Shown here: positions 25,856 through 44,414 of the stretch, one piece after another
Numbering within the stretch: the stretch's first letter is position 1
Layout of the letters: the number at the start of each line of letters is the position of its first letter
NCBI GenBank assembly: GCA_028279755.1
Contig: JANQNB010000018.1
Coordinates: forward strand, 260,611-324,610
Direction: 5' to 3'
DNA: 64,000 nt
Origin: Candidatus Nanoarchaeia archaeon
GTDB lineage: Archaea > Nanobdellota > Nanobdellia > Woesearchaeales > UBA525
Made by a program: the position numbers and the translations under genes
Notes under the pieces: generated by a model
Told to the model about the DNA's origin: nothing
Database searches by the model: none
What the model saw: only the letters and a program-made list of their open reading frames with translations

Positions 25856-25908
25856 GCACATTGCCGCCTTGGCGCGGCGTGCGTAGCGTGAGCGCCGCGG
25901 CAATGTGC
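25856..25908. repeat. structured repeat B1 (short type) at the VWA stop
   Basis: A perfect 12-bp stem GCACATTGCCGC/GCGGCAATGTGC (25856-25867, 25897-25908), a one-sided CTT bulge (25868-25870), and an inner GGCGC/GCGCC stem (25871-25875, 25892-25896). The last base is the first base, on the plus strand, of the VWA gene stop codon. Related copies are at 42449 and 57123. Confidence 0.75.
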
Positions 25909-34861: not shown

Positions 34862-36241
34862 ATGGTGAAGTGGGGGACGCTATTCATTGTTCTGCTCTGT
34901 TGCGCAATGGTATCAGCAGAGACAGATGCCATCACTGGATCGTTCCTTGTCATGGACAAGCAGGGCGTGACCAGCGACGCGACGCGCATCGTGTATGACG
35001 AGCCGCCGGAACTGCAGGAACCGGCGCCGACAGGCGAAGATTTCAGCCTTGACGAGGGAGTGCCTGAGGAAGAGTTTCCAACGCTCTTCGAGGAGAAGGC
35101 GACTGCTGACGAGCCCTTGCTCACTGAAAAGCATCAGGCTCTCCTGGACGATCCGGAAGAACAGGCTGAATCCCAACGACTGGTCGACACGATCAATAAC
35201 GAAGAGCCGGTTGAGATGATCAAGCAGCTCTCGAAAAGCAAGATGCAACGCTTCCTGGTCCAGTTCAAACGCAGCTGCGACCTCAGCGGGATTCCCGAGC
35301 CTGCGGTCAAGCGGCGCATCGACACCGACAATTACGTCTTCATGGCGCTCCTCATGCCCCGCGCGCTCTTGCGACCATTCATCGAGAACGGCTGCGTGGT
35401 GAAGATCGCAGATCCGGAGAACAAGGAAGCATTCTTCGAATACGCGAAAAACGTCATGCGCGAGGAAGCGATGGAACGCGCACTGCTTTTGGAATTGCAC
35501 AAGTCAAGCAATGATGTCACTGCATACGGCGACCTTGTCGGCCAGCTCGACGACGCGTGGGACCGGGCGATGGGAAAGCACTCGCCCTTGCAGCAGTATG
35601 TCACGCCGAAAGCGGCGCCAGTGCAACGGCTCGCAGGCGCCTTGGAACGCGACGCACTCTACGCGCGTGCGTCCGGCTGGCTGTGGATCAGCGACGATGC
35701 GCTCTGGCAGGAAAGCGAGAAATGGCTCACGCCTGCAGAGTTCCTGGCAAGCACGCCCAGCCACGACGATAATCCCTTAGTAGGTACGCCAGCGAGCGAT
35801 TGCTCAGAACAGGCGAATACACTCGTCTCGCTGCTGCGCGCCAGCGGGGTCTCACCGAAGAATGTCAGGGTCGCGATGGGCGAAGTCGAGTTCTTCGACG
35901 GCACAAGCGGCGGGCACGCCTGGGTTGAGGTGCGCATCGACGGCACCTGGATCGTCCTCGACCCGACAGTGGGCTCGTATTACGACGACGAGACTGGTGA
36001 GCTTGCGGAACGCGAAGGCTTACCAGTCAGCTACTGGCACTACCATCCCTTCCCGATCAACGAAGTATGGTCGTACTACAACGACAAGTACTTCCTGGAC
36101 ATGCGCGAGGACCACGCACCAAAATCTTGGGACCAGGATGCTGACACGCTGCTCGGCAAAGAGCTCAGCGAGGGGCTCCACCAAGGCTTCTGGGAAAAAC
36201 TCATGCTGCTCGTGATCAGAGTGATCGGCGCGTTCGCCTAG
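34862..36241 (+). CDS. secreted transglutaminase-like protein, second copy
   Basis: The 459-aa protein has a signal peptide (FIVLLCCAMVSAET). An acidic linker occupies 25-110 and a helical domain 110-300. The transglutaminase core ends the protein, with Cys in ASDCSEQANTL (about 313), His in SGGHAWVEV (about 351) and Asp in IVLDPTVGS (about 366). It differs from the 1803 copy in having the catalytic part at the C-terminus. A short hydrophobic end (LMLLVIRVIGAFA) could be a membrane anchor or hairpin. Confidence 0.8.
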   Translation: MVKWGTLFIVLLCCAMVSAETDAITGSFLVMDKQGVTSDATRIVYDEPPELQEPAPTGEDFSLDEGVPEEEFPTLFEEKATADEPLLTEKHQALLDDPEEQAESQRLVDTINNEEPVEMIKQLSKSKMQRFLVQFKRSCDLSGIPEPAVKRRIDTDNYVFMALLMPRALLRPFIENGCVVKIADPENKEAFFEYAKNVMREEAMERALLLELHKSSNDVTAYGDLVGQLDDAWDRAMGKHSPLQQYVTPKAAPVQRLAGALERDALYARASGWLWISDDALWQESEKWLTPAEFLASTPSHDDNPLVGTPASDCSEQANTLVSLLRASGVSPKNVRVAMGEVEFFDGTSGGHAWVEVRIDGTWIVLDPTVGSYYDDETGELAEREGLPVSYWHYHPFPINEVWSYYNDKYFLDMREDHAPKSWDQDADTLLGKELSEGLHQGFWEKLMLLVIRVIGAFA

Positions 36242-38949
36242 CGTATGGTCTGCACAACGCGTTCGCGGGCTGCTGTTGCTTCTTCTGCTAGCGAGCCAAA
36301 GCCTTCTTCGCGTGCGCGCATCCCTGCTTTGACGTACCACCCCAAAGCCTCGCTTGGAAGATCCCGCGCTTCGCGCACACGGCCTTTGCCCATCATTGCC
36401 ATGAACTCGTTGTACACATCCCGAGGAATGCCCTTGTCCGGTACGCCGAGACTGAGCGTGTAGGCTTCATCGAACAAGGCGCTGGCCGCGTCCACCTGTC
36501 CGAGTGCGAGCTTGACTTCGCCGTGCATCGCGAGGGTGTACACCCGGATCGGATCGTGCACCTGGGCTCTCATCAGATCACGGGCGCGAGCGTACTGCGC
36601 ATCTGCCTTATGGAACAAGTCCTGGAAATAAAATGATTCTGCGATCACGCTGATGCAGAGCCCTTCATAGTACTGGTCGCCGAGTTCTGCAGCATAGCGA
36701 GCCCCGCGCTGCAGCCAGGCCTGGCCTTCTGCGTGCTTCTTGTAGATCACCAAGCCGTTACCGATGGTGTAGCAAGCGTCGCGCAGTCCCCAGAGGTCAT
36801 TATTGTTCTCAGCGATGGCGATTGCGAGTTCCGCATCTGCTACCGCAGCTTCGAGATCGCCGAGCTCGACATTCAGGCCAGCGCGGAGTTCGTAGGCATA
36901 GCCGAGTCCGCCGATCCTGCTCTGACTGGGATCGACACCATGACCTGTTTCCTTCTCTTCCCATGCGATGAGCCAATCGATTGTCTGGCTGAGTCTGGAG
37001 ACTGCGGATTCGAACTCGCCCTTATTTGCCTCCAGCACTGCCAGGTAGCGATCGATCCTCGCAGTGAGATTGATATTACCTTGCGCCATCGAAGTGGCGC
37101 GTGCATTGTTGTAAGCAGTGACTGCGTCGTCATACTTGCCAGTCTTGCGCAGGATCCTGCCGCGCTCGACCTGGAGCAAGGCGATGTTTGCTTGCGCCTC
37201 TGGTGTGGGATGTCCCACAGCCTCTGCAGTGAGTGCGATAGCCTGGTCAAGGACTGCGAGCGCGGCTTCCTGCTGCTGCAGGCCCTCTTCTTCAGGCAGG
37301 TGTTCTGCTTGTGTCGAGAGCAGGTCTGCCAAGGAGTACGCCGCTGCCGGCTCCTGGGTCTGCTGCCAACGTTGCTGTAAGAGCCGCTTTGCCTCTTCTA
37401 GATCAGGGGCTTTCTCCGTTGTCCCGACTTCTGCACGCCTGGCAGCGAGATACAACGCTGCGCTGTGATCATCGTTTGGCAGGAAGCGCTCGGCACGTTC
37501 ATAATGGTCGCGAGCAAGTTCTGGCTGGTCACGGCGCCGCGCGACTTCACCAAGCCCCATGGCTGTCGAATGCTTTGCTGCATTGACCCGTCCACGCCTG
37601 AATACCGGTATGAAAACGCGACCCAAGTATTGCTCTGCCTCGTGCAAGTGCCTGCTAGCGGTCACAACATCTCCAACCTCCTGGAATGCTCCTGCTTGCA
37701 ACAATGTCCTTTCTGCATCTCTCAATGCGAGTGGATTCCATATTGCGTAGACGCCGATAGTGCCCAAGACAGTCGCTGCCCCTGCGACGCCGACAATGCC
37801 TCCTGTTCTTCGATGTCCGCGAGCAGCAAGCTTCGCCTGTTCGTCACGATATTCGTCGAGCGCGTTAGGAATTTCCATGACATCCTGCAGACGCGCATCA
37901 GGATTCGGGTGCAGTCCCTTGAATGCCAGATTCCAGAGGACCTGCTCTTCAGATTGTTCCTGTCCTTGGAGTGGAATCTTGTACTCTTCCCTGAGTTCCT
38001 GGACTCGGCTTTCGTACAGTTCGATGAACTCCTCGAGCGGGGCTTCCGTCTGTTCGCTGCCGGTCATGCGCCGAATTCCACTGGTGCGCAATTGATCGAT
38101 CGTGGTCAGCATCCCTGGCGTGACGAATTTTGGATCAGCCTCGCCGACACGCAGGAGCTCTATGATGCTCGCGCTCAGGCTGTAGATGTCTGTGCGATGA
38201 TCCACTGGCTGGTGCAGCAATTGCTCCGGTGGCATGTATGGCGGGGTGCCGCCCATCGCCTTGACGGTCTTTCCATCTGCAGCGATCTCTGCAAGGCCGA
38301 AGTCGATGATCTTGACAGCGCCGCCTTCGTCAGCTGACATATCAGAGCGGAGCATGGTGTTCGCGAGCTTGAAATCCAGGTGACGAAGCCCTCTGCTGTG
38401 CATCGCGTTGAAGCCCTCGCAGAGCTGCATGACTATCTCAACACAGTGTTCTTGCACGCGCTGATCCGACTCCTTGACTGCTTTGTGCAACGTGTCACCT
38501 TCAACATACTCTTGGACAAGGACACGCTCCTCTTCGTAGAAGTGAATGATTGAGGCGATGTTCGGATGATTGATTTCCGCCATCATCTTGGCTTCGCGTC
38601 TGAGAGACTGTAGTTCGTGCCGATCCTGAACTGTGACGACCTTGATGGCACGCGGCAAGTTGAGAACTGTGTCGAAGGCCTTGTAGACCATTCCCATGCC
38701 GCCCTGGCCAATGCATGCTTCAATCCGGTAATCTGTAGCGACGATTGCTCCGGGCTCGAACCGCGAGTTGCTCACTCGAGCCTCAAGGCTTGGCGCTTTG
38801 ACCTGGCCTTTCCGTGTCTGTGCTTCGTCAAACTCGCCAGTATCTACAACGTCGGGCTGGGTCGCGCCTTTCTCGAAATCGCCTGGCTGGGTTCCTGCAT
38901 CCGCTGGCTGTGTCACAGGTTCCTCAGGTCGCGTCGGTTCGTCAACCAT
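36238..38949 (-). CDS. TPR-bearing membrane Ser/Thr protein kinase
   Basis: The 903-aa protein has a Thr/Gln/Pro-rich N-terminal 60 residues with repeated TQP. The kinase domain follows: IGQGGMGMVYK (80-90), AIKVV with K103, HLDFKLAN (190-197, Arg of HRD replaced) and IDFGLAE (D216). A membrane segment near 395-415 (VGVAGAATVLGTIGVYAIW) separates it from about 480 residues of TPR-like helical repeats. The design mirrors bacterial PknB-TPR kinases. The TQP repeats could be autophosphorylated docking sites, an inference. Start is 32 bases from a TATA-like tttttaaatg. Confidence 0.82.
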   Translation of the reverse strand: MVDEPTRPEEPVTQPADAGTQPGDFEKGATQPDVVDTGEFDEAQTRKGQVKAPSLEARVSNSRFEPGAIVATDYRIEACIGQGGMGMVYKAFDTVLNLPRAIKVVTVQDRHELQSLRREAKMMAEINHPNIASIIHFYEEERVLVQEYVEGDTLHKAVKESDQRVQEHCVEIVMQLCEGFNAMHSRGLRHLDFKLANTMLRSDMSADEGGAVKIIDFGLAEIAADGKTVKAMGGTPPYMPPEQLLHQPVDHRTDIYSLSASIIELLRVGEADPKFVTPGMLTTIDQLRTSGIRRMTGSEQTEAPLEEFIELYESRVQELREEYKIPLQGQEQSEEQVLWNLAFKGLHPNPDARLQDVMEIPNALDEYRDEQAKLAARGHRRTGGIVGVAGAATVLGTIGVYAIWNPLALRDAERTLLQAGAFQEVGDVVTASRHLHEAEQYLGRVFIPVFRRGRVNAAKHSTAMGLGEVARRRDQPELARDHYERAERFLPNDDHSAALYLAARRAEVGTTEKAPDLEEAKRLLQQRWQQTQEPAAAYSLADLLSTQAEHLPEEEGLQQQEAALAVLDQAIALTAEAVGHPTPEAQANIALLQVERGRILRKTGKYDDAVTAYNNARATSMAQGNINLTARIDRYLAVLEANKGEFESAVSRLSQTIDWLIAWEEKETGHGVDPSQSRIGGLGYAYELRAGLNVELGDLEAAVADAELAIAIAENNNDLWGLRDACYTIGNGLVIYKKHAEGQAWLQRGARYAAELGDQYYEGLCISVIAESFYFQDLFHKADAQYARARDLMRAQVHDPIRVYTLAMHGEVKLALGQVDAASALFDEAYTLSLGVPDKGIPRDVYNEFMAMMGKGRVREARDLPSEALGWYVKAGMRAREEGFGSLAEEATAARERVVQTIR

Positions 38950-38992: not shown

Positions 38993-39595
38993 TCAGATGT
39001 CGAGAATAAAGCCTTTCCTGCCCACGTTGATCACACGGGTCTTGCCGACCTGCTCTTCCAGGCCCTCTGCCTCGTGCACGTGACTGCAGAACGCGATGTC
39101 AGGCTTGAGCTCTTCGATGGCTTTGCGCACGCCTGTGCTGCCTGGAAAGAATTTGGTCATCTTCTCCATGACAGTTCCTGATGGATGCACGTGGGTCACC
39201 ATGATGCGCTTCTTGAGATAGCCGATACGCTTATGCGCTTCTCGCAGCGTGTCTTCGATCTCGTCTTCATCGAGCCGTTCAGTGCCGATGTTCGCCTTGC
39301 CGCAGCCGAAGATGCCGATGTCGTCGTACTTGACGCTGTAGCCGTGGATGTTCTTCACTGGATAGGTCTTGGTCAGGACATCGCTTGTTGCGAAACTGTC
39401 GTGATTGCCTGGGATGAAGAGGACTTTCTGGTGCTGCTCGAGAAAGGGACCGATGATGCCTTTTGGTTCCTCGTCGAAATAGGTGAAGTCGCCGCAGATC
39501 ACGACAAGATCGACATGCTCCTTCTTCGCGCGTTTCGCCAATCGTTCTGCCAAAGAGCGGTCGCCGTGCAAGTCGCCCACGCTGAGAATCTTCAT
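38993..39595 (-). CDS. metallophosphoesterase (YfcE/MJ0936-like)
   Basis: Metal ligands appear in order as VGDLHGD (8), VICGDFT, IPGNHDSF, VTHVHPSG and CSHVHEAEG. The 200-aa length and the pattern suit archaeal phosphodiesterases of the MJ0936 type; the physiological substrate is unknown. Its ATG overlaps the stop of the Sua5-like gene (ATGA), so it is the second gene of a two-gene operon. Confidence 0.88.
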   Translation of the reverse strand: MKILSVGDLHGDRSLAERLAKRAKKEHVDLVVICGDFTYFDEEPKGIIGPFLEQHQKVLFIPGNHDSFATSDVLTKTYPVKNIHGYSVKYDDIGIFGCGKANIGTERLDEDEIEDTLREAHKRIGYLKKRIMVTHVHPSGTVMEKMTKFFPGSTGVRKAIEELKPDIAFCSHVHEAEGLEEQVGKTRVINVGRKGFILDI

Positions 39596-40164
39596 CGTTC
39601 CTGCACTTCCAGTTCGTCCTTGTCCAGCCTGATAAGCGTGCTCGGACTGCCTTTCAATTCGCCGATATAGAAGATGTGCTGCACATTCTTCTTGATCACC
39701 GGATGCAGGTCGTCCAACGAGGTCATGTGATCATGCCCTGTCAGGTTCGCGCTTGTCGTCACCACGGGCACGCCGAGTTCCTCAACGACTTCGCTGAACC
39801 AGCTGTCAGGAATGCGCACGCCGAGCGTGTCCAGTCCCATGTTCACCGCGCTGGGAAACGTGTCTGCATTCTTCAGGCGGAGCACAAGGGTGTAGGGTCC
39901 TGGCAGCTTGTTGAGCCATTCTTCCGCTTTCTCAGTGATCTCGCAATGCTCCCTGATCCACTCCTTGCTCGGCGCGATCACGCTGAACGGCAGGTTGTGG
40001 CGCTTCTTGACATCGCGCACCTTATGCACGAGTTCCTCGTCCAGAGCGTTGCAGCCGATGCCGTAGATCGTGTCTGTCGGGTAGATGAACAGCCCTTTCT
40101 TTATGTCACGAAGCAAGGCCGCTTTTTTCGCGGTAAACTCGTCCTTGTTATGGATCATGGTCAT
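39592..40164 (-). CDS. Sua5/YrdC threonylcarbamoyl-AMP synthase
   Basis: The 190-aa protein makes threonylcarbamoyl-AMP for the t6A modification of ANN-decoding tRNAs. YPTDTIYGIGCNA, KKRHNLPFSVIAPS, PGPYTLVL and VVTTSANLTGHD are the YrdC motifs. It is the short YrdC form without the Sua5 C-terminal domain. The ATG at 40164 lies 25 bases from a TATA-like box in the atttatttaaat stretch; earlier in-frame starts would lie within the promoter. Confidence 0.9.
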   Translation of the reverse strand: MTMIHNKDEFTAKKAALLRDIKKGLFIYPTDTIYGIGCNALDEELVHKVRDVKKRHNLPFSVIAPSKEWIREHCEITEKAEEWLNKLPGPYTLVLRLKNADTFPSAVNMGLDTLGVRIPDSWFSEVVEELGVPVVTTSANLTGHDHMTSLDDLHPVIKKNVQHIFYIGELKGSPSTLIRLDKDELEVQER

Positions 40165-40242
40165 GTTATGGAGGAAGTCAACATGATTTAAATAAATGGC
40201 GGACAATGAATTTTATATAGGACCTCGTGTTGCAGACGCGCC

Positions 40243-42448: not shown

Positions 42449-42527
42449 GCACCGCCGCGGCGCTCTTACTTCGTATGGTTTGTGCTGCGGCCCTCTCGCT
42501 ACGCATGCCGCGCCAAGGCGGCGGTGC
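42449..42527. repeat. structured repeat B2 (extended short type) at a micro-gene stop
   Basis: Terminal arms GCACCGCCGC/GCGGCGGTGC (42449-42458, 42518-42527), the CTT bulge (AAG at 42515-42517 on the plus strand) and inner GGCGC/GCGCC. Compared with B1 and B3 it carries about 30 extra bases inside, which look like a partial second copy of the core (ATGCGTAG and ATACGAAGTAAGA). Its last base is the first base (plus strand) of the stop codon of the 38-aa micro-gene. Confidence 0.72.
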
Positions 42528-42643
42528 TATAGATTGGCAATGGAGGCTTCTCTGACGGATTGCCGCCAGAAGAGCTCGTCTATCTGGTTCACGTATGCTT
42601 CGTATTCCTGCCAGTCCATGTAATGCTTTTTCTTGAAGAGCAT
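42527..42643 (-). CDS. micro-protein C of a three-gene operon, 38 aa
   Basis: 38 residues, aromatic- and charge-rich (opens MLFKKKHYMDWQEYEAYVNQ). GGGGGTGG is eight to fifteen bases upstream of the ATG, and the preceding stop TAA is one base from it. No family is recognised; the amphipathic sequence would form one helix. Being last in a chain of tightly coupled tiny frames makes chance unlikely. Confidence 0.6.
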   Translation of the reverse strand: MLFKKKHYMDWQEYEAYVNQIDELFWRQSVREASIANL

Positions 42644-42644
42644 C

Positions 42645-42761
42645 TTACCACCCCCTGAGGTAATGCTTCATCTCATCTTCGTCTGCGATGAGTCCCTGCC
42701 TGCTCAGCAGGCTGCTGACTTGTTCTGCGTATCTGTCCCTGTCCTGAAATGCTGCTGTCAT
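42645..42761 (-). CDS. micro-protein B of a three-gene operon, 38 aa
   Basis: 38 residues (opens MTAAFQDRDRYAEQVSSLLS; ends KHYLRGW) with a predicted helix-turn-helix-like helical hairpin shape. GGAGGT lies five bases before the ATG, a nearly perfect Shine-Dalgarno. It sits one base after the stop of micro-protein A and just before micro-protein C. No homologous family is known to me. Confidence 0.6.
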   Translation of the reverse strand: MTAAFQDRDRYAEQVSSLLSRQGLIADEDEMKHYLRGW

Positions 42762-42762
42762 G

Positions 42763-42846
42763 TTATACCTCCGCGCCAAGCGTGACGCGCTTCATCTGCT
42801 GGAAAAAGAGTTCTTCGATGAATGTCTGGTTCTCGTGGGCTTTCAT
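42763..42846 (-). CDS. micro-protein A of a three-gene operon, 27 aa
   Basis: 27 residues (MKAHENQTFIEELFFQQMKR at the start). GAGGTG (42853-42858 on the opposite strand) lies six bases upstream of the ATG, and a TATA-like box (42889-42900) predicts transcription start near 42868, giving a leader of about 22 bases. A longer in-frame start at 42978 lies upstream of this promoter and is unlikely. Confidence 0.58.
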   Translation of the reverse strand: MKAHENQTFIEELFFQQMKRVTLGAEV

Positions 42847-42888
42847 GTGATTCACCTCTGTCGCTCTGACAGGCCTTGATGTGGCAGA

Positions 42889-42900
42889 GTATTTAAGCGC
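42889..42900 (-). promoter_or_regulatory. promoter of the micro-gene operon
   Basis: gcgcttaaatac read leftward is a TATA-like box about 48 bases before the first micro-gene ATG, consistent with a short leader carrying GAGGTG. The opposite strand promoter of the AT-hook gene lies about 100 bases further right. Confidence 0.5.
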
Positions 42901-43080
42901 CACGGGTGAATGTCCAGTGCTCTTCTCGACGATAGACACGGGCCAGTGGGTGTGCACGAAAAACTCGTTTTTTTCCACTTCAAGACTAGTTTTTTAAACA
43001 ACAAAACTATACCTAAGACAGCAACGCAGCGACTTCTGTATACGCATGACGTGCAGAGCTTGCTGCCTGAGGTGACAAAA

Positions 43081-43320
43081 ATGGTAAAGAAACGAGGTCG
43101 CGGCCGTCCACGCGGTTTTGGCAGCGTCCCCCGCTCATACAAGGATCGATTCCAGAAGTTCTACTACGAGCACCGCGCTCGCCTGAACCAGGAACGGCGC
43201 AAACTGTACGAGGAACGCAAGGCGAAAGGGCTGTGCGTTCGCTGCGGCAAGATCGCGGTGAAGGGTAGTGTGTTCTGCCGCTCGCATCTTGACATGAGCC
43301 GCAAGTACAACAAGAACTAA
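43081..43320 (+). CDS. AT-hook and zinc-binding small protein
   Basis: 79 residues: an AT-hook-like KKRGRGRPRGFG at 3-14, a basic helix, then CVRCGKIAVKGSVFCRSH, a possible Cys3His zinc site. It should bind AT-rich DNA in the minor groove. GAGGTGA six bases before the ATG at 43081 decides the start; longer in-frame starts lie within the promoter area. It sits convergent to Orc1/Cdc6. Confidence 0.75.
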   Translation: MVKKRGRGRPRGFGSVPRSYKDRFQKFYYEHRARLNQERRKLYEERKAKGLCVRCGKIAVKGSVFCRSHLDMSRKYNKN

Positions 43321-43358: not shown

Positions 43359-44414
43359 TCAGAAATCCGTGATTTTCTTGTTCACGATGGTGGTATTGCC
43401 GCCTTCGCCTTTCTTGCGTTCGAGCGTGACAAACTTGCCTTCGTCGAGCGCTGCGAGCTTCCGCTGGAAGGTCTTATAGCTCACTTTGCCGCCTTCCTTC
43501 TTGTAGAGATTGTAGAGTTCGCCGATCTTCTTGCCGTCGTGCTGCTTGATCACGTCGTAGATGAAGCGTTCTTCTTCAGTGAGATCCTCGCTGCTCTTGA
43601 TCGTGAACTCGTCCATGTTGCCCAACGCGGCGTTGACATGCTCAGCAGTGACTTTCTGGCTTGCTGCATCCTCTGCTTTCAACGTGGCCTGCCGCATCAC
43701 GTACAAGCCGGTGCGGATGTCCTTTGCGCCTGCCGCTTTCTCGACGACAAGGTCGAAGGCTTTCGGCTCCCAGACGCCAGTGATGAACGCGTATTCTGAA
43801 CGCTGTTCGAGAATGCCGCGTGTTTCCTTGTCGTTGTACTGCTTGAACTCGATCAGCTCTGGCGTGAGCCGTGATTTTATGCGTTCGTCGAGCTCGATGA
43901 GCCAGCTCTTGTAGTTGGTGATGACAATGATGCTCTTCTTGAACAGTTCTTCGAGCAAGGAGTAGAGGAAATCGAACTCTTCTGCTTTGTCGATCTCGTC
44001 GAAGACAATGACTGCGCTTTTCTTGTTCACCATCGACGCGATGACCTTGATCAATTCCTGGCTGTTCTTGTTCTGCGTGAACTTGAAGCCGAGGAGCTCG
44101 CAGAGTTCTAACAAGACTTTGTAGGTGGTGTTGGCTTGCCAGCAGTTCACATAGCAGACTTCCACGTCATCAGTGCGTTCTTCGAGGTCGCGGAGGACGA
44201 ATCTGGCTGCTGCGGTTTTGCCGATGCCGGGTGCGCCGTGGATGAGCGCGTTGCGGCCGTTGCGTCCTTCGAGCAAAGGCGCGATCAGTCTCGCGAGCTC
44301 CTTTTGTTCCCGTTCGCGATACGGCAAGAGCTTTGGCAGGAACTCGTATTCGAGCGCGTCCTCGTTCTTGAAGAGCGATTCGCCAGCATTGAGAACATCG
44401 TCGAAGAGGCCCAT
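43359..44414 (-). CDS. cdc6: Orc1/Cdc6-type AAA initiator
   Basis: The 351-aa AAA+ protein has Walker A HGAPGIGKTAAARF (59-72), Walker B AVIVFDEIDKAE near 135, the sensor loop IITNYKSW and a C-terminal winged helix (GELYNLYKKEGGKVSYKTFQRKL). This is the Orc1/Cdc6 origin-recognition protein that loads MCM. The ATG at 44414 lies 26 bases from a TATA-like box in the ccataaatacc stretch. Archaeal origins commonly lie next to the gene, making the AT-rich intergenic region to its right an obvious candidate. Confidence 0.85.
   Translation of the reverse strand: MGLFDDVLNAGESLFKNEDALEYEFLPKLLPYREREQKELARLIAPLLEGRNGRNALIHGAPGIGKTAAARFVLRDLEERTDDVEVCYVNCWQANTTYKVLLELCELLGFKFTQNKNSQELIKVIASMVNKKSAVIVFDEIDKAEEFDFLYSLLEELFKKSIIVITNYKSWLIELDERIKSRLTPELIEFKQYNDKETRGILEQRSEYAFITGVWEPKAFDLVVEKAAGAKDIRTGLYVMRQATLKAEDAASQKVTAEHVNAALGNMDEFTIKSSEDLTEEERFIYDVIKQHDGKKIGELYNLYKKEGGKVSYKTFQRKLAALDEGKFVTLERKKGEGGNTTIVNKKITDF

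Follow-up and report, generated by a model that had tools for sequence, protein, structure and literature searches.

Three adjoining microprotein genes of a woesearchaeal genome share a promoter element with DNA-repair genes and may form one unit of an SOS-like regulon

The window, i.e. the complete analysed stretch of 64,000 nucleotides, contains on its minus strand three very short genes in direct succession: mp1 (42763-42846; 27 aa, MKAHENQTFIEELFFQQMKRVTLGAEV), mp2 (42645-42761; 38 aa) and mp3 (42527-42643; 38 aa). The gaps between mp1 and mp2 (taaCatg) and between mp2 and mp3 (taaGatg) comprise exactly one base each, and every frame is preceded by a ribosome site of its own on the same strand, i.e. 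GAGGTG at 42853-42858 for mp1, GGAGGT at 42767-42772, positioned within the 3' end of mp1, for mp2, and GGGGGTGG at 42648-42655, positioned within the 3' end of mp2, for mp3. All these figures were correctly given in the initial annotation (27, 38 and 38 codons, one-base gaps, individual ribosome sites behind one TATA box), from which the strand was missing. The only TATA-like box of the operon (TTAAATA; 42890-42896, minus strand) is located in the mp1 promoter; a second element of this promoter, the box CACTGGACA (42911-42919, minus strand), starts 23 bases ahead of the TATA box and was absent from the earlier observations. At the other end of the operon, the mp3 stop codon overlaps by its final base (42527) with the end of an inverted repeat (42449-42458/42518-42527; no strand), so that the described contact between the final stop and a hairpin indeed exists. 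As an RNA, however, this hairpin was unexceptional (z = -1.6), the Rfam search revealed no match between 41 and 45.5 kb of the window, and a 30-base piece of the GC-rich palindromic element recurs at 25869-25898 (3 mismatches; chance expectation 0.00). Because its core is repeated elsewhere, the inverted repeat is probably a dispersed intergenic repeat and not part of the operon, and a functional hairpin following mp3 was rejected.

Profile searches detected mp1 in 236 of 353 genomes of the order (158 of 220 genera), usually as one copy per genome, and mp3 convincingly in about 80 of the 353 genomes (112 at E<=0.1). Within the genus of the window, mp2 was present in four genomes and relatives of mp3 were found by tblastn in two of five (51-62% identity); the latter also occur in many other families of the order. 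The approximately 80 loci that were fetched agree in strand and in the gene order mp1-mp2-mp3, and a GAGGTG-type ribosome site is present ahead of nearly every mp1. Some genomes retained mp1-mp2 alone, and many of those with mp1-mp2 either lack mp3 or contain it in unrecognised form; at loci without mp2 according to the first profile, the gap is usually filled by a diverged mp2 that ends with DDEISxxEEGFMxGYLxA. The members from the window are themselves deviating: mp1 is shorter than most of its relatives, whose ends read SFDxQxSDxW, and mp2 of this genus has the diverged ending EMKHYLRGW in place of the DDEISxxEEGFMxGYLxA of relatives elsewhere. Residues W11, Y14, Q28 and R31 of mp3 are conserved. 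Most codon differences affect third positions, with synonymous sites near saturation, and uncorrected pN/pS values ranged from 0.38 to 0.60 in the genus and from 0.19 to 0.42 in family f41; this substitution pattern and the pN/pS values of 0.19-0.60 indicate constraint at the protein level. Disrupted frames in relatives or the lack of coding constraint had been named beforehand as observations that would refute the proposed genes; the respective comparisons demonstrated that the frames are kept and constrained. The view that the frames are not due to chance is likewise borne out by homologues in dozens of genomes with conserved order, strand and ribosome sites and with differences mostly at third codon positions. 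Comparative genomics thus supports a micro-operon of three translated genes under a promoter of their own, and there is hardly any doubt that mp1, mp2 and mp3 are real genes. In a sister order, an mp1-like stretch and mp2 are present in one frame (G414, L136), probably an mp1-mp2 fusion, that is followed by a phosphoesterase-like gene.

As had been stated for all three peptides, no known family could be assigned: Searches of mp1-mp3 against Pfam, NCBIfam and PHROGs as well as PDB sequence searches yielded nothing significant. The suggestion of small helical proteins is supported for mp3, for which AlphaFold2 predicted one helix (residues 11-37, mean pLDDT 91, 51 relatives). A paralogy of mp1 and mp3, considered on the basis of a shared ELF(F/W)xQ, was rejected in view of a weak profile comparison (hhalign probability 2%). 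A sample of 371 genomes from across the phylum contained the mp2-type domain (DDEISxxEEGFMxGY), a motif not described so far, in 233 cases, frequently with several small proteins of this type in one genome; the genome of the window encodes a further copy of 82 aa (L159, G000:C23:371692). These uncharacterised "EEGFMxGY" small proteins are alignable with mp2, which is detected by their profile with an E value of 1.9e-10 in the genome of the window, but the other copies sit elsewhere in the genomes and the mp2 ending of the window's genus is diverged. Since bacteria possess SOS-linked small toxins, the small size and the overlapping order of the genes might also be taken to indicate a toxin-antitoxin-like module. 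This is very improbable: mp1-mp3 are usually single-copy genes at a fixed locus throughout the order, neither patchy nor mobile, they match no family of Pfam, NCBIfam or PHROGs, their sequences are without apparent membrane helix, and mp1-mp2 represents a core to which mp3 is an optional addition.

An orc1/cdc6 initiator-family gene (43359-44414, minus strand) is located upstream of the micro-operon, and 46 of about 79 loci have orc1 at this place and in the same orientation. The interval between orc1 and mp1 harbours on the plus strand (43081-43320) the gene of a protein of about 80 aa whose N-terminus resembles an AT hook (RGRGRPRGFG) and whose C-terminus reads CxxC...C..H; among the loci, matches to it were confined to the window's genus, with two tandem copies in G002 (L002 2119-2406 and 2488-2739). 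On the downstream side, tsaC (Sua5/YciO/YrdC) comes next after mp3 or mp2 in most loci, and a metallophosphoesterase-like gene, assigned by sequence only, follows tsaC across the order (about 53 of about 79 loci). The window deviates in that three genes, folC among them, separate mp3 from tsaC (39592-40167, minus strand), which is thereby displaced by about 2.4 kb, and the phosphoesterase-like gene is located behind tsaC at 38993-39595 (minus strand). A further frame, of 903 aa (36238-38949, minus strand), resembles, from the look of its sequence, a protein kinase of the Ser/Thr type whose C-terminal part is rich in repeats; such a protein is unusual for this kind of archaeon. Nearly everywhere, tsaC has a TATA box of its own about 30 bases ahead of its ATG and is therefore regarded as a separate transcription unit; co-transcription with the micro-operon was rejected for this reason. 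The position directly upstream of tsaC in most loci could suggest that mp1-mp3 are partners or regulators of TsaC in the t6A modification of tRNA; considering the separate tsaC promoter, the distance in the window and the grouping of the mp1 promoter with repair genes (see below), such a role is improbable. Even less can be said for a role as mere leader peptides, by which translation or transcription further downstream would be regulated without a protein function. The frames are indeed very short and each stop adjoins the next start, but the residue conservation in mp3, the low pN/pS values, the mp1-mp2 fusion, the separate tsaC promoter and the absence of tsaC directly behind the mp genes of the window render this explanation highly improbable.

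The box CACTGGACA was found ahead of the TATA box upstream of mp1 in most relatives (41 of 63 loci with at most one mismatch, compared with 1.6% of random windows); about a third of the mp1 loci lack it. The consensus reads CACTGG(A/T)CA, and the distance from box start to TATA start amounts to 22-26 bases in most of the 63 sites. The pattern CACTGGACA-N12-18-TWTAA is present in approximately 173 of 193 genomes of the order (our count from the results table), across which the reversed control gave 9 hits in total, whereas 149 genomes of sister orders had no more than background (16 hits versus 8 control hits). Being common in the order and at background level in its sisters, the box is a lineage-specific promoter element. 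In several genera (four further loci), it is preceded by a palindrome-like (T)CTCGTCGAGA stretch, situated in the window at about 42938-42927 (minus strand). Another subclade (nine loci) exhibits in place of the box a hairpin, GGCAGGA..(TTCACCCC)..TCCTGCC, with a T-rich run just before the mp1 ribosome site; this hairpin might function in attenuation or else terminate transcription of the preceding gene.

Scanning of the window's own genome with the pattern CACTGGNCA revealed 12 distinct sites (16 overlapping pattern hits) ahead of genes or operons; the reversed control gave none. Besides mp1-mp3, the genes concerned encode a Rad3/XPD-type helicase, Hef (above the curated cut-off), Lhr (PRK13767), DNA polymerase II, a VRR-NUC nuclease with weak Hjc similarity, an RNase-H-like exonuclease (RNase_H_2), an XhoI-type enzyme, a LAGLIDADG protein, a 51-aa zinc-finger-like protein, a 201-aa protein without assignment and the C-terminal half of Hel308 without helicase domain 1 (L334, G000:C23:38226), for which no N-terminal half was found upstream within the locus. 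Leaderless members have their ATG at a distance of about 51-57 bases from the box start, as expected from the TATA position. A set of 98 first genes from about 22 other genomes and the own genome included Hef (8), Bro-N (12), Lhr-like (4), RNase_H_2 (3), XseA (2), DNA methylase (3), Cas4/Dna2-like (1), LAGLIDADG (4) and radical SAM genes (3, one of them TIGR03916, DNA modification/repair) and, in about a dozen cases, members of a family of about 100 aa without known function; TnpB and integrase genes also carry the box. In the reverse direction, 13 of 30 genomes showed the box (at most one mismatch) at Hef promoters, at positions -48 to -61, with a chance expectation of 0.4%. The members hence have a promoter element in common more often than expected by chance, as required of a regulon. 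Judged by the assigned families, the members would be mainly genes of DNA repair, recombination or polymerases, accompanied by mobile-element genes; a background test is available for Hef only.

Two small proteins of unassigned role recur behind the box. The family of about 100 aa (twelve loci) has the sequence KFRAGxxSATIW...TVSFERxYKDKxGNWQTTNSLR and is predicted to form a beta sheet with a long C-terminal helix; it matched no family, and a Foldseek search gave nothing reliable. In one genome (G018, L152), its gene comes after an mp2-like frame. A zinc-finger-like protein of about 50 aa (CPxC...CVYC) was seen at the leaderless position in five loci, the own genome included. The number of sites is far higher in some genomes (G280, with 29 sites, G102 and G001), where most of them precede genes for Bro-N proteins and other accessory genes; this looks like a takeover of the promoter by mobile elements.

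Owing to the shared box before repair genes, the micro-operon is interpreted as one unit of an order-wide, SOS-like DNA-repair regulon: Its membership in the CACTGGACA regulon is very probable, and it is likely that this regulon serves DNA repair or the response to damage, the induction being inferred from gene content only, in the absence of expression data. A real regulon could instead be devoted to defence or the control of mobile elements, with the microproteins as defence regulators; this role remains possible, since the box is also present at Bro-N, LAGLIDADG, XhoI-type, TnpB and integrase genes, but it has little likelihood in view of the recurrence of Hef, Lhr, Pol II, Rad3/XPD-type and XseA genes, which make up much of the own-genome set. 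The repair regulon resembles the bacterial SOS (LexA) regulon, in which one promoter element likewise serves repair helicases, nucleases and a Pol II-type polymerase, and the micro-operon would add small proteins to the response as do the SulA- and SidA-type proteins of bacteria. It differs from bacterial SOS in its archaeal TATA promoters, in the box CACTGG(A/T)CA, which differs from the E. coli SOS box, and in the presence of three unrelated microproteins of less than 40 aa in one operon. To our knowledge, no SOS-like regulon as described here is known from DPANN archaea, and none was found in literature searches; the element points to a damage response of this kind that is new for these archaea.

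The nearest archaeal precedent is the damage response of Sulfolobales, which is controlled by the Orc1-family protein Orc1-2 via the DDRE motif ANTTTC (PMC9738581). Similarly, orc1 adjoins the micro-operon here, but the box is different and binding of Orc1 has not been shown; upsA, cedA and tfb3 were not noticed among the motif-downstream genes (the DDRE itself was left out of the scan). Two orc1 paralogues exist in the own genome (the second at G000:C6:36215-37240), and the orc1 of G102 carries the box. Reversed, the box (TGTCCAGTG) has TCCAGTG in common with the archaeal origin recognition box (ORB), the consensus of which is TCCA[CG]T[TG]GAAA... (PMC4164010, Table 1). The ORB criterion, i.e. 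a dyad TCCA..TGGAAA followed by a G-string, is not met: Both the GAAA half and the G-string are lacking, and the box occurs at promoters with fixed TATA spacing, in contrast to the ORB clusters at the origin. These seven common bases are weak evidence for Orc1. No good full ORB was present near orc1 of the window; since only a weak site (3 mismatches, at 42971) was found there, Orc1 as the regulator stays a lead. That an Orc1/Cdc6-family protein is the master switch of the regulon, reading TGTCCAGTG next to the TATA box as an ORB-like half-site, and that mp1-mp3, induced by damage, bind Orc1 to halt replication initiation during repair is an unlikely proposal; Orc1 as either target or regulator is doubtful as well.

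According to the preferred reading, DNA damage would cause an unidentified regulator to act at the box, whereupon expression of the polymerase and of the helicases and nucleases of repair would be induced along with that of mp1-mp2-mp3, the latter being transcribed jointly from one regulon promoter; damage induction is inferred from the genes concerned, which are those expected of a DNA-damage response. The microproteins could subsequently cooperate as adaptors, helical or with acidic tails, through which a protein of replication or repair is bound and held back or, alternatively, recruited; the first candidate for this target is the Orc1/Cdc6 initiator, whose gene lies nearby. A function as adaptors or inhibitors in the damage response is considered somewhat more plausible than not. 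The conserved order and the probable mp1-mp2 fusion fit the earlier proposal of one complex or a larger partner; no partner has been shown. As a whole, the micro-operon within an SOS-like regulon with the microproteins as joint adaptors is given a probability of roughly 0.6, with induction, regulator, joint complex and target being inferred.

One short element thus links Hef, Lhr, Pol II, XPD/Rad3-type helicases, Hel308 and several nucleases across a largely uncultured order, and yields a list of testable members for each genome. If the Orc1 proposal were true, it would amount to a replication checkpoint made of three peptides of less than 40 residues. Micro-operons of less than 40 codons per gene can stay in order across a whole archaeal order, and a process has been assigned to three microprotein families that are too short for standard annotation.
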